A DNA stretch of 43,627 nucleotides from a virus: positions 1 to 43,627 of the IMG/VR virus record IMGVR_UViG_3300047300_000281; one strand, 5' to 3'. Made by a program: the position numbers and the translations under genes. Below, in pieces: positions 10,914 through 20,462 of the stretch (the stretch's first letter is position 1; each line of letters opens with the position of its first letter). Below the pieces are notes generated by a model. It was not told the origin of the DNA, did not search any database, and saw only the letters and a program-made list of their open reading frames with translations.

Positions 10914-11328
10914 AACTTGGGAACTCCCGGGGCCTGATAAAGGTTCTGAAATCAAGTGGCACCCTGTTGTCCGTGTAGGAAGAGTGGTCCCATTTGGTTA
11001 CATGCAAGACCCTAACGACCCTGATATCATCCTTCCTATTGAACGTGAACTAGAACTTTTAGAAGAAGCTAAAAAACACCTTAAGAAATATTCCTCTCGT
11101 GAAGTGGCTGCTTGGCTATCTACTCAGTCTGGACGGAGTATCTCCCACGTAGGTTTGTTGAAAAGAGTACGAATTGAAAAGAACCGACAGCGAGAAGCTA
11201 CAATCTATCGCAACCTTGCCGCGCGCTACGAAAAAGCCCTCAAGAAAGCCGAAGAGCTTGAAGCAGCCCGAATCGGTGGTGCAAGAACTCGTACCGTCAC
11301 CGAAGGTACCAGCACAGCCTCTGCCTGA
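10900..11328 (+). CDS. Helix-turn-helix protein next to TerL (alternative small terminase)
   Basis: 142 residues from the ATG at 10900, overlapping the previous gene by 14 bases. SSREVAAWLSTQSGRSISHV (about 64-83) reads as a helix-turn-helix, followed by a long basic helix (YRNLAARYEKALKKAEELEA). The N-terminus (WELPGPDKGSEIKWHPV) and this layout match proteins placed directly before TerL in marine phages. Its last 155 bases overlap the longest TerL frame. It may be the DNA-recognition subunit or a cofactor. Confidence 0.55.
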   Translation: MNLSETWELPGPDKGSEIKWHPVVRVGRVVPFGYMQDPNDPDIILPIERELELLEEAKKHLKKYSSREVAAWLSTQSGRSISHVGLLKRVRIEKNRQREATIYRNLAARYEKALKKAEELEAARIGGARTRTVTEGTSTASA

Positions 11329-13714
11329 GCCTATCGACGTACCCAAAGCTCAAGATGTAATCTTTAAGCCTAACCCGGGACCCCAGACAGACTTTCTTGC
11401 CTCCTCGGAGCAAGAGGTTCTCTATGGTGGCAGCGGGGGCGGGGGAAAAAGCTTTGCCATGGTTGCAGACCCAGTAAGATACTTTAATAACCCCCATTTT
11501 AGGGGCCTCTTACTGCGGCGTACTACAGAAGAACTTCGAGAACTTATCTCCGTCTCTAAACAACTTTATCCACAAGCTATCCCGGGGATTAAGTTTTTAG
11601 AAAGAGAAAAAACTTGGATTGCACCTTCGGGTGCAAGTTTGTGGATGAGTTATCTGGACTCAGACGACGATGTACTAAGGTACCAAGGGCAAGCCTTCGC
11701 TTGGATTGGTTTCGATGAGCTGACCCAGTGGGCCAGCCCCCACGCTTGGAACTATATGCGTTCGCGACTTCGTACAACAACCGCATCAGGCCTAAAACTA
11801 TACCAACGTGCTTGTGTCGATGAGGGGGATGTACTAACCGAGTCGGGATGGAAGCCTATTCAAGATGTGCTTACGGGAGAAAAAGTCTACTCTCTGACCT
11901 CTAAAGGGGAGCTTGAACTACGATCTGTGACTGCCACACATGCTTTTGACGTGGAAGAGCCTCTTGTACGGGTAAGAAAAAAGAACCTGTACATGTCCAT
12001 GACACCGGATCATAGAGTTCTCTACCGGAAGCAAGGCAGCGTGCGTTTTGAGTTAATTCGTTTTAATGAGCATAAGTCCTTGGCCATAGATGTAGCTAGA
12101 ACCTCTTTGAACTACGAAGCTAAGGGTTATAAGTCCCCTATCGCTGGTTTTTCTGATATAGAGTATGCAGAGTTCCTAGGGCTGTATGTTGCAGAGGGAT
12201 GTGTTTGCAAGCCACGTAATGGCAATTATAAGGTTTTAATTACTCAGAATAAAAAAGAAAATCAAAGTTGGGTGAAGTCTGTAATGGAAGCTTCTGGTTT
12301 CTCTGTGTGCGCGTGTAGCAATGGGGATTTCCAGATAACTAATAAGTCCTTGCACACTCACCTTCTCCCTTTAGGTAAAGCAGTAAATAAGCACTTTCCT
12401 AGAGAGTTTCTTTCTAACGCTACAAAAGAGCAGCTTGAGGTTGCTTTTCAAGCTTACGCAAGGGGTGATGGAAATTGGCAATCAAACTCTAGCTGCCAAG
12501 CTGTCACTTGTTCTAGGCAACTCGCAAGCGATCTACAAGAAATTGCGGTAAAACTTGGGTACAAGGTACAGGTAAATCATACTAAGTCTGAAAATAAGAA
12601 TCACAACGATCGCTTTACTATATATCTCACCAAGAACTCCCCCACTACGAAAGTAGATAAAAATACTGTGGGGAGAGATGACACAGCACTTGAACCCTAT
12701 AAAGGTAAGGTCTACTGTCTTTCTGTAGAGGGAACAGAGAATTTTGTGCTCAGACAGCGGGATTTTGTCTGGATATCTGGGAACACTACCAACCCGGGTG
12801 GCCCCGGACACGCTTGGGTCAAGAAGATGTTTGTCGATCCCGCACCTCCTAAGACTTCTTTTTGGGCTACAGATATTGAAACAGGAGAAGTCATCAAATG
12901 GCCTAAAGGACACTCCCGCGAAGGTGAGCCACTCTTCAAACGTCGATTTATTCCTGCTACGCTCTTTGACAACCCCTACCTAGCTTCTGACGGTATGTAC
13001 GAAGCAAACCTTCTCTCACTTCCTGAACATCAAAGGCGACAACTGCTCTACGGGGATTGGGACATTAACGAAGGCGCTGCGTTCCCGGAGTTTAATCGTC
13101 GTATCCATGTTGTAGAACCTTTCGATATCCCGCATGGGTGGACAAAGTTTCGTGCAGCAGACTACGGATATGGCTCTAATACTGGTGTTGTCTGGATCGC
13201 TGTAAGCCCTTCTGAGCAACTGATTGTCTATCGTGAGATGTATAACTCTAAAGTCACGGCTTGGGATTTGGCAGACCTGATCCTAGAAGCAGAAGAGGGT
13301 GATAATGTTCGTTATGGTGTTCTCGATAGCTCTCTTTGGCATAATCGTGGTGATCGTGGACCCTCTCTTGCAGAGCAGATGATTTCCAAGGGTTGTCGTT
13401 GGCGTCCTTCGGATCGCTCTCGTGGTTCTCGTGTTGCAGGTAAGAACGAACTACATAGACGGCTACAAGTTGATCCTTTCACAGGTGAACCCCGTCTTGT
13501 CATCTTTAATACTTGCAAGAACTTGATTGCTCAACTGCCTTCTATCCCACTTGATAAGAATAATCCAGAGGATGTAGATACTAACGCAGAAGATCACTTG
13601 TACGATGCTCTTCGTTACGGTATTATGAGCAGACCTAAGAGTAGTCTTTGGGACTATAACCCCGCTACACATGGAACAGGCCACAAAGTTGTGGATGAGA
13701 AATTTGGTTACTAA
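11174..13714 (+). CDS. terL: Terminase large subunit, interrupted by an intein
   Basis: 846 codons, of which 522 remain after intein removal. The ATPase domain has Walker A GGSGGGGKS (85-93) and Walker B AWIGFDE (176-182). The intein occupies 214-537 and splits the conserved RA/TTNPGGPGH segment. The nuclease domain follows, with FRAADYG (Asp 663) and later acidic sites in YGVLDSSLW and DHLYDALRYG. TerL cuts concatemers and pumps DNA through the portal. The longest frame begins with TTG at 11174, deep in the previous gene; TTG near 11255 or GTG at 11275/11278 are later options, since conserved sequence starts only near residue 58. Confidence 0.9.
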   Translation: MKRTDSEKLQSIATLPRATKKPSRKPKSLKQPESVVQELVPSPKVPAQPLPEPIDVPKAQDVIFKPNPGPQTDFLASSEQEVLYGGSGGGGKSFAMVADPVRYFNNPHFRGLLLRRTTEELRELISVSKQLYPQAIPGIKFLEREKTWIAPSGASLWMSYLDSDDDVLRYQGQAFAWIGFDELTQWASPHAWNYMRSRLRTTTASGLKLYQRACVDEGDVLTESGWKPIQDVLTGEKVYSLTSKGELELRSVTATHAFDVEEPLVRVRKKNLYMSMTPDHRVLYRKQGSVRFELIRFNEHKSLAIDVARTSLNYEAKGYKSPIAGFSDIEYAEFLGLYVAEGCVCKPRNGNYKVLITQNKKENQSWVKSVMEASGFSVCACSNGDFQITNKSLHTHLLPLGKAVNKHFPREFLSNATKEQLEVAFQAYARGDGNWQSNSSCQAVTCSRQLASDLQEIAVKLGYKVQVNHTKSENKNHNDRFTIYLTKNSPTTKVDKNTVGRDDTALEPYKGKVYCLSVEGTENFVLRQRDFVWISGNTTNPGGPGHAWVKKMFVDPAPPKTSFWATDIETGEVIKWPKGHSREGEPLFKRRFIPATLFDNPYLASDGMYEANLLSLPEHQRRQLLYGDWDINEGAAFPEFNRRIHVVEPFDIPHGWTKFRAADYGYGSNTGVVWIAVSPSEQLIVYREMYNSKVTAWDLADLILEAEEGDNVRYGVLDSSLWHNRGDRGPSLAEQMISKGCRWRPSDRSRGSRVAGKNELHRRLQVDPFTGEPRLVIFNTCKNLIAQLPSIPLDKNNPEDVDTNAEDHLYDALRYGIMSRPKSSLWDYNPATHGTGHKVVDEKFGY
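11813..12784 (+). mobile_element. Intein with LAGLIDADG homing endonuclease in TerL
   Basis: 324 residues, from Cys 1 (CVDEGDVLTESGWKPI) to Asn 324 (FVWISGN), followed by Thr as the +1 nucleophile. The N-terminal Hint half has the TxxH motif (TPDH, 64-67). The inserted endonuclease has two LAGLIDADG-type motifs, LGLYVAEGC (122-130) and AYARGDGNW (214-222). Block F is VYCLSVEGTENFVL (300-313). The penultimate His of block G is Gly, and the block F position that is often His is Glu, so the C-terminal cleavage chemistry is atypical. The codons look AT-richer than the exteins. Removing it restores QRA-TTNPGGPG. Confidence 0.9.
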
Positions 13715-18227: not shown

Positions 18228-18303
18228 GCCACTATAGCTCATCTGGTAGAGCGCCTGTTTTGTAGTCAGGATGCGCGGGGTTCGAGTCCTCGTGGTGGCA
18301 CCA
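18228..18303 (+). tRNA. tRNA-Thr (anticodon UGU)
   Basis: 76 bases. All four arms pair: a 7-bp acceptor (GCCACTA with TGGTGGC), D stem GCTC/GAGC, anticodon stem CCTG/CAGG with anticodon TGT at 18261-18263, and T stem CGGGG/CCTCG with the TTCGAGT loop. Discriminator A and CCA are encoded. It reads ACA (and, by wobble, other ACN) threonine codons. It lies between the capsid promoter and the capsid gene and so should be made as part of that transcript and processed. Confidence 0.93.
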
Positions 18304-18465: not shown

Positions 18466-20462
18466 ATGGCTTTTCAATCCGCTCCGGGCTGGTCCTCGCT
18501 TCCTAACGGCAACTTCTCGCCCGTAATCTACTCGAAGAAAGTCCAACTGGCTTTCCGTAAAAAAGCTATCGTTCAGGATATCACCAACTCCGACTACTTC
18601 GGTGAAATCTCGAACATGGGTGATAGCGTCCGTATCATCAAAGAGCCTAAAGTTTTGGGCCTTCTGGCGGCATAACGCCAAGAAGATAATCCTGTGAATT
18701 GCTGGAAAGCTAAGGGTTCTGAGACCAACCTAAGTTAATCAGCAGCCAAGCCCCGAGAGGGGAAGGTTCAGAGACTAGAACATACATATAATCAAGTAGT
18801 GGCTCGTCGTAGCTAACGAAAGGAAGAAAACGATGGATAAACGTAAAAGAGGCATTCTTTACGGTCTTGCGTTGGGTGATGGAGGTATCTATCTCGATAA
18901 ATCCCAAGCTGCAGGCACAGCTAGGTTGATCATTGGCCATGGGCCTTCTCAGCTTGAGTATCTGCAGTATAAGCAAAGGCTATTGCACAGTGTCTTAGGG
19001 GGTAAAGAGCCTTCCCTGTACACTTCACAGTCTAGAAACTCTACTACGAATAAATTCTACACAAACCATCAAATCTATAAAAACCACACGTACTTTAGGC
19101 AAATGCACAGAGTTCTTTATCCACAAGGGAAAAAGGTCTACTCTGAACAGTTACTAAGTTACTTGACGGACGAAAGTCTTGCTTTGTGGTTTATGGACGA
19201 TGGATCGGGTACGATTTCTTTTAACCAGAAAACAAAAAAGCCTTGTGGCTGTATGACACGTCTTTCGACATACTGCTCAAAAGAAGAGGCTGAATTGCTC
19301 CAAAATTGGTTTACCGAGAAGTATAAAATTACCCCTAAGTTTGATGTAGATAAAAGAAACGGTATGTACTCTCTAAGATTTAACACTAAAGAATCCCGAG
19401 AGTTTGTCCCTATCGTAGCTCCTTACATGTTTTATACTCTTAAGTATAAGATAGCACATGTAGATAAGTATGTTCCAAGAGTGCAGGACACCCTACGGGG
19501 TGAAGATATAGTCCGATCTCTAGAGAAATCTAGAGTAGAGTAAAATTAAAAAAACTCTTCTAACAAAAATGGAAATCTCGGTCTCGGCATATGCTCGTGG
19601 TCAGCAACTGACTGCACAAGACCTGCAGGATGATGACTTCACTCTGGTTGTCGATAAGGCCAACGCCTTCGCTTTCAAAGTGGACGATATCGAAGCTGCT
19701 CACTCGCATGTCAACTTCATGGACTTGGCTACTAACCGCGCCGCCTATCGTCTGGCTGACCAGTACGACCAAGAAGTTCTGGGCTACCTGTCGGGCTACA
19801 AGCAATCGGCTAACCATGCTGCTGCTGATACTGTGAACACCACGACTTCAGGTACTGTTGCTACTGCTGGTGCTGGTACTGACGAACTTCTGTCGGCGAT
19901 GAAACTGTCGCGTCCGTCCTTCGGCAACCTGTCGTCGGCTGGTTCGACTGGGGACTCGATTCCGGTTGGTGCTCGCCTTCCGGGTGCTACCGCTCTGCCG
20001 ACCGCTTACGTTTCGCCCGTCATGCTGATCAACCGTATGGGTCGTCTGCTTGACCAACAGAACGTGGACAAGTCGGGCCGCTGGCTGGTGATCGATCCGG
20101 TCATGATGGAAGTTCTGCAGGACGAAGACTCGCGCTTCCTGAATGCTGACTTCGGTGATTCGGGTGCCCTGCGTAATGGTCTGGCTATTTCTAACTGGAA
20201 CGGCTTCCGTGTCTATGTCTCGAACAACCTGCCTAAAGTGGGTACGGGTCCGAGCACTGTTGGTACTACCGCTCAGTCGACCAACTTCGGTGTGATCGTC
20301 GCTGGTCATGATTCGGCTGTTGCTACCGCTGAGCAGATCAACAAGACCGAGACCTACCGTGACCCCGACTCGTTCGCTGACGTGGTTCGTGGTATGCACC
20401 TCTACGGTCGCAAGATTCTTCGCGCAGAGGCAATCACCGTCGCCCGTTACAATCTGGCCTAA
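18466..20462 (+). CDS. Major capsid protein, split by a group I intron
   Basis: Exon 1 is 18466-18648 (61 codons, ending RIIKEP) and exon 2 is 19572-20462 (296 codons, beginning EISVSAYARG). Joined they encode 357 residues. The start has AAGGAGA upstream. The sequence (GWSSLPNGNFSPVIYSKKVQ, then DLQDDDFTLVVDKANAFAFK) matches HK97-like major capsid proteins of marine podovirus types. Unspliced RNA would give only a 69-residue product ending at 18675. Exon 2 codon use is strongly biased to G/C-ending codons (TCG, CTG, GGT/GGC), unlike the intron and most neighbours, as expected for a very highly expressed gene. Confidence 0.85.
18649..19571 (+). mobile_element. Group I intron in the major capsid gene
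   Basis: 923 bases. The exon 1 end GAGCCT pairs with GGGC at 18657-18660 and gives the required U-G at the splice site; the intron ends in G at 19571. A P2-like hairpin TGGCG/CGCCA follows. The core elements are canonical: P (AATTGCTGGAAA, 18697), Q (AATCAGCAGCCAAGCC, 18737-18752), R (GTTCAGAGACTA, 18766-18777) and S (AAGATATAGTCC, 19503-19514); GACTA in R pairs with TAGTC in S to make P7. The endonuclease gene starts between R and S. Splicing joins KEP to EISV in frame. Confidence 0.9.
18833..19543 (+). CDS. LAGLIDADG homing endonuclease within the capsid intron
   Basis: 236 residues with two LAGLIDADG-like motifs, YGLALGDGGIY (10-20) and ALWFMDDGSGT (117-127), so one chain makes the whole active site. 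The aspartates at 16 and 121/122 are the expected metal ligands. The ribosome-binding site AAGGAAG precedes the ATG. The final residues (LRGEDIVRSLEKSRVE) are encoded by the intron's S/P7 segment, so the C-terminus and the ribozyme core constrain each other. It should cut intronless capsid alleles near the KEP/EIS junction. Confidence 0.88.
   Translation: MDKRKRGILYGLALGDGGIYLDKSQAAGTARLIIGHGPSQLEYLQYKQRLLHSVLGGKEPSLYTSQSRNSTTNKFYTNHQIYKNHTYFRQMHRVLYPQGKKVYSEQLLSYLTDESLALWFMDDGSGTISFNQKTKKPCGCMTRLSTYCSKEEAELLQNWFTEKYKITPKFDVDKRNGMYSLRFNTKESREFVPIVAPYMFYTLKYKIAHVDKYVPRVQDTLRGEDIVRSLEKSRVE

Follow-up and report, generated by a model that had tools for sequence, protein, structure and literature searches.

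It was found that the major capsid gene (18466-20462, plus strand) of an IMG/VR virus carries, directly after codon 61, a 923-nucleotide group I intron, whose boundaries (18649-19571) could be fixed exactly within the window, that is, the whole 43,627-base stretch of DNA analysed. The intron carries an intact LAGLIDADG endonuclease gene in its P7.1 loop, and this gene overlaps the ribozyme core. I consider it very likely that the element is an active mobile intron in an HMO-2011-type capsid gene and that it must be spliced for the capsid protein to be produced. The features of the locus are as follows.

18466-18648, plus strand: exon 1, codons 1-61, with a Shine-Dalgarno AAGGAG just upstream (phrog_267; aligned with intronless coat proteins)
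18645-18660, plus strand: P1, exon GCCU (18645-18648) with internal guide GGGC (18657-18660) and the U18648-G18657 wobble at the 5′ splice site; invariant in 9/9 sequences
18652-18656, plus strand: 5′ strand of P10, pairing with GAAAU of exon 2 (19572-19576)
18665-18680, plus strand: P2 hairpin, containing the in-frame stop codon 18673-18675; double changes in 5/5 pairs
18690-18695, plus strand: 5′ strand of P3, UCCUGU, 100% paired with GCAGGA (19483-19488); three pairs doubly changed
18694-18708, plus strand: P element, with the 5′ strand of P4 at 18699-18704 (sequence and alignment)
18737-18749, plus strand: Q element, with the 3′ strand of P4 at 18740-18745 and the start of P6 (sequence and alignment)
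18765-18777, plus strand: R element, with the 5′ strand of P7, GACUA, at 18773-18777 (sequence and alignment)
18778-18785, plus strand: 5′ strand of P7.1, GAACAUAC, the helix enclosing the endonuclease gene; 5/8 pairs doubly changed, 100% paired
18800-18815, plus strand: putative small P7.2-like hairpin UGGCU/AGCUA in the P7.1 loop, just 5′ of the ribosome-binding site of the endonuclease gene (RNAalifold)
18819-18826, plus strand: Shine-Dalgarno-like sequence of the endonuclease gene, AAAGGAAG, kept in most relatives
18833-19543, plus strand: LAGLIDADG endonuclease gene, 236 amino acids, motifs LALGDGG and LWFMDDGSG intact (PF03161, phrog_11023, AlphaFold, Foldseek)
19468-19475, plus strand: 3′ strand of P7.1, GUAUGUUC, within the endonuclease coding sequence (covariation)
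19483-19488, plus strand: 3′ strand of P3, GCAGGA, within the endonuclease coding sequence and just 5′ of P8 (covariation)
19489-19502, plus strand: P8 hairpin, within the endonuclease coding sequence (alignment, covariation)
19503-19513, plus strand: S element, with the 3′ strand of P7, UAGUC, at 19509-19513, within the endonuclease coding sequence (sequence and alignment)
19515-19517, plus strand: CGA replacing the endonuclease stop codon UGA of most same-site relatives; the ORF reads on for nine codons to UAA 19541-19543
19518-19535, plus strand: P9 hairpin (alignment, covariation)
19537-19558, plus strand: P9.1 hairpin AGAGU/ACUCU (alignment, covariation)
19572-20462, plus strand: exon 2, codons 62-357 and the stop codon (phrog_267, 2e-54; 79% identity to the CRP-13 coat protein)

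The gene had been proposed to encode the major capsid protein, and both exons bear this out. Both match PHROG 267 'major head protein' (exon 1 with 2.4e-4, exon 2 with 2e-54), and the exon 2 product shares 67-79% identity with coat proteins from Roseobacter phages CRP-13, CRP-9, CRP-1, and CRP-345 and from Puniceispirillum phage HMO-2011. The terminase of the window is likewise nearest to the HMO-2011-type group; the virus is an HMO-2011-type marine podovirus. To place codon 61 in the fold, an intronless capsid relative was modelled with AlphaFold; the model, with a mean pLDDT of 34, was discarded. Two further observations concern neighbouring genes. A tRNA-Thr (TGT) gene lies immediately upstream of the capsid gene (18228-18303), and the capsid gene of contig L085 is also preceded by a tRNA gene. 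The terminase ORF (TerL, 11174-13714) contains an in-frame intein of about 324 amino acids at 11813-12784 (RA/C...SGN/TTNPGG, where slashes mark junctions) with Intein_splicing and LAGLIDADG_3 matches; it is absent from CRP-13 and other relatives. The window virus therefore has a second mobile element, lodged in a gene essential for packaging.

The intron span given in the original prediction proved exact to the base. The same insertion base is used in 14 IMG/VR contigs (L085-L090 and L092-L099); GAGCCU precedes the intron in all of them except L096, and a G precedes exon 2 in 14/14. Intronless homologues in IMG/VR and GenBank are uninterrupted at this point and read IIKEP/E(I/V)SV, carrying straight through the residues that the predicted KEP-to-EISV join brings together. 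Joining 18648 to 19572 in frame gives RIIKEP/EISVSA and a protein of 357 amino acids. The U-G pair proposed at the 5′ site (U18648-G18657) and the omega-G that ends the intron (G19571) are invariant in nine aligned sequences. The covariance search that had been called for gave an RF00028 match at 18639-19535 (plus strand; Rfam cmscan) with 64.9 bits and E=2.4e-14, above the gathering score of 50; in the whole window, the tRNA-Thr is the only other Rfam match passing its threshold. The predicted spliced junction is ...AAAGAGCCT joined to GAAATCTCGGTCTCGGCATATGC. No junction with the exact flanks of the window virus was found among the viral contigs, and no near-identical intronless allele is known. 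In L096 (1230-1265) and also in L117, the intronless exon AAAGAACCAGAAATTACGG runs directly into the intron at GGGCTTCC, and the 5′ splice site is absent; either assembly has made a chimera from two alleles, or the copy is truly broken.

What would be read without splicing? The unspliced exon 1 ORF ends within the intron at the stop codon 18673-18675 after 69 amino acids, while the exon 2 frame is open for 297 amino acids with an in-frame ATG at 19569-19571. The aligned relatives likewise have an in-frame stop no more than about 30 nucleotides from the 5′ splice site, and such an early stop is the usual arrangement in group I introns (PMC3073962). The trap foreseen for simple annotation, a 69-amino-acid protein and a headless capsid protein, is real. 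The open frame and its ATG might suggest that the intron is dead, the capsid gene being either broken or expressed by translation of exon 2 alone from 19569. This is highly improbable. The ATG is formed by the last three bases of the window intron, where the same-site relatives have TTG, and no Shine-Dalgarno sequence was found ahead of 19569 in the sequence read. Moreover, exon 1 is conserved with its own Shine-Dalgarno sequence, and the helices of the core are all intact. Independent translation of exon 2 was rejected, as the start codon is not conserved and lacks a Shine-Dalgarno sequence. Because the intron has an in-frame stop codon and exon 2 has no credible start of its own, capsid production is predicted from this anatomy to need splicing, as had been claimed for an essential gene.

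The proposed P, Q, R, and S elements are all readable at their predicted positions. In a structure alignment of nine same-site introns from which the endonuclease gene was removed, the named structure has 64 pairs in 13 helices, and 95.1% of the cells are paired; sliding the partners by one to three columns reduced this to 33-46%. Changes on both sides occur in 26 of the 64 pairs, against a shuffled mean of 14.0, and none of 500 shuffles reached this number. The double changes are found in P2, P3, P5, P6a, P7.1, P8, P9, P9.1, and P10, while P1, P4, P6, and P7 are invariant; P7 is compensated as GACCA/UGGUC in the second intron of L113. P3, P4, P5, P6, and P7 are 100% paired and P8 is 97% paired in the nine sequences, so that the P3-P8 and P4-P6 domains and the P7 pseudoknot are present. 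The periphery is looser. P9.1 is paired in just 75% of the cells, P9 fails in two of the nine sequences, and in P10 one pair has changed from U-A to C-G in three relatives while the outermost G-U is kept in only 3/9.

The cmscan alignment puts the 3′ strand of P3 at the start codon of the endonuclease gene. If Rfam were right, the gene would lie in P8, with P3′ beside its start, but this is scarcely tenable. The region upstream of S pairs with P3 at 6/6 positions in 12/12 introns, with compensatory changes, whereas the Rfam site gives 3-5/6 pairs. In addition, P8 is formed by a local hairpin, and P7.1 covaries at 5/8 pairs. The Rfam placement was ruled out by this covariation, and the gene is assigned to the P7.1 loop. 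In a crude test, the P7.1 helix was longer than every control window from the same gene in 16 of 21 introns, other insertion sites included (the exceptions being L085, L122, L130, L100a, and L125a). A P7.1/P7.2 extension between P7 and P3′, the sole subgroup IA criterion examined, is present, and offers a lead to subgroup IA. It was also noticed that RF00028 puts P3′ and P8 in the wrong place in introns whose P7.1 holds an ORF, and that several such introns fall below its threshold (L022, L085, and L099 gave no intron match). Surveys relying on RF00028 will undercount them.

The original prediction did not include the endonuclease gene, the way this gene overlaps the core, or the wider capsid hotspot described below. 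The ORF matches LAGLIDADG_2 (PF03161; 97.7 bits, 9e-28) and PHROG 11023 (3e-20), and the acidic motif residues D16 and D122/D123 are conserved. No relatives were confirmed in bacterial and archaeal genomes. The AlphaFold model (16 window and locus sequences) has a mean pLDDT of 89.6 and is nearest to I-WcaI and I-SceI by Foldseek (TM about 0.7), while residues 218-236 are below 50. The ribozyme core encodes residues 212-215 (P7.1′), 217-219 (P3′), 219-224 (P8), 226-227 (P7′), and 229-235 (P9). Since the low-confidence tail coincides with the core-encoded residues, the model suggests that the ordered enzyme ends almost exactly where the 3′ part of the core starts. Within the overlap, the coding sequence tracks the RNA structure: residue 214 is Val, Ser, Asn, or Thr, varying in step with the P7.1 pairs. 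In most same-site relatives, the endonuclease gene stops at a UGA directly 3′ of P7′, and three stop slightly earlier, in P8. By sequence comparison, the change from UGA to CGA in the window reads as a step of 'core creep' between close relatives, a step proposed earlier (PMC3073962).

Is the intron mobile, or merely inherited? In the tree of exon 2 proteins, a single clade of intron-bearing capsids was rejected (p-AU 5.6e-33). The L088 and L089 capsids group with the intronless HMO-2011, and the L113 capsid is distant from the others, yet the endonuclease at its site 61 shares 62% identity with that of the window. The introns of relatives are 74-76% identical to the window intron where their exon 2 DNA (more than 30 nucleotides from the junction) is 60-75% identical. 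The conflict between the endonuclease and capsid trees is mild (the window and L085 as a pair, p-AU 0.029 in one direct test). Repeated gain or loss by homing may explain the patchy distribution and flat intron identity, which fit such a history. A spliceable intron with an inactive endonuclease, passed on by vertical descent only, seems unlikely. Gain and decay of such genes are general, the second endonuclease of L113 lacks the first motif aspartate (AIGGSYL), and the window enzyme has a nine-codon C-terminal extension; however, both LAGLIDADG motifs and the fold of the window enzyme are intact, and the distribution among capsids is patchy.

The preferred reading of an active mobile intron leads to the following scheme. 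Judged from the sequence, the ribozyme would cut after U18648, join codons 61 and 62, and exit after the omega-G at 19571 to give the 357-residue capsid protein. The I-SceI/I-WcaI-like monomeric endonuclease probably cuts intronless IIKEP/EISV alleles, and this cleavage may copy the intron into co-infecting phages. The last 25 or so codons of the endonuclease gene double as the 3′ half of the core (P7.1′, P3′, P8, P7′, and here also P9). A ribosome finishing the endonuclease gene would have to unfold the core, so splicing and endonuclease translation are expected to be mutually exclusive on one RNA.

Other introns were found in the same stretch of the capsid gene. An intron in codon 44 is present in L022 and L109-L112. 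L100 and L125 are interrupted at both codon 44 and codon 61. L113 (2699-5663) and L114 have three capsid introns (codon 44, near 51, and after 61), each with its own LAGLIDADG gene, and the exons between them are 20 and 33 nucleotides long. In the capsid gene region of L251 (3637-5845) and L226 (3089-4943), whose capsid-like genes belong to the PHROG 1357 major head protein lineage, there are six and four RF00028 matches, respectively, between short exons. The viral contigs were scanned more widely with a pattern for the conserved P4-Q core, and at least 73 introns in which R and S are both recognisable were obtained, a set that includes near-duplicates. Among the matches listed, the two P7 strands are separated by an insert the size of a gene in 14; major capsid genes harbour 13 of the 14, and 11 have a perfect P3′ just 5′ of S. 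By comparison, 8/59 introns with a short P7-P7′ interval adjoin these capsid genes (Fisher p=3e-8 against 13/14, for the matches listed, whose rows are not independent). There is probably a lineage of introns with a LAGLIDADG gene in the P7.1 loop that is specialised on phage major capsid genes, occupies sites in a short N-terminal stretch (here at codons of about 44, about 51, and 61), and has spread over distant capsids, with two, three, or about six introns per gene and exons down to 20 nucleotides.

Few phage genes are expressed as strongly as the major capsid gene, which is also a widely used marker. Introns in this marker gene lead to capsid genes in metagenomes being annotated as fragments and missed. 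The introns also offer a natural series for studying how a ribozyme and a protein gene can occupy the same bases: where pairs of P7.1 and P3 have changed in a compensatory way, the encoded amino acids differ, and the stop codon lost into P9 is a further case. They may serve as well to address whether capsid-aimed endonucleases act in competition between co-infecting viruses, a role demonstrated for an intron-encoded endonuclease of phage PhiPA3 (PMC11620839).

No published introns in HMO-2011-type capsid genes were found in the literature searched, which covers few subscription journals, and that literature describes neither the placement in P7.1, nor the spread specific to capsid genes, nor capsid genes with several introns. 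The category itself is not new, since capsid-gene group I introns are known from mycobacteriophage LittleE and lactococcal phage Tuc2009 (PMC3706429). LittleE, of Cluster J, has a probable group I intron in its major capsid gene, with a U before the 5′ site, a terminal G, and a putative LAGLIDADG gene, and its splicing was proven by RT-PCR and N-terminal sequencing of the capsid protein (PMC3706429). It differs from the window in its unrelated capsid and insertion site, its length of 819 bp, its endonuclease gene on the opposite strand, and its high-GC Gram-positive host (PMC3706429). In Tuc2009, a phage of a different type, the group I intron lies in the gene for a capsid subunit (cited in PMC3706429). 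I-SceI (1r7m, 5a0m) and I-WcaI (6x1j) share the monomeric two-motif LAGLIDADG fold with the window enzyme (TM 0.69-0.71) at only 20-25% identity, and the ribozyme-encoded tail of the window enzyme is predicted to lie outside the folded domain. In the T4 td intron, the I-TevI coding sequence also overlaps the ribozyme core, and ribosome occupancy of the overlap is reported to harm splicing (PMC3073962). However, I-TevI is a GIY-YIG enzyme encoded in P6 with a 20-nucleotide overlap (PMC3073962), in contrast to the LAGLIDADG gene in P7.1 and the overlap of about 76 nucleotides (19468-19543) in the window. The LSU rDNA intron of Synechococcus lividus resembles the window in having a LAGLIDADG gene and an 81-nucleotide core overlap (P6/P7/P3/P8/P9.0/P9), although its gene is assigned to P8 and its host gene encodes rRNA (PMC3073962). 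Finally, the orf182 gene of phage Twort has three group I introns and exon skipping (PMC3073962), comparable with the multi-intron genes of L100, L113, L125, L226, and L251. Twort orf182 is not this capsid gene, and here the exons between introns are as short as 20 nucleotides (L113).
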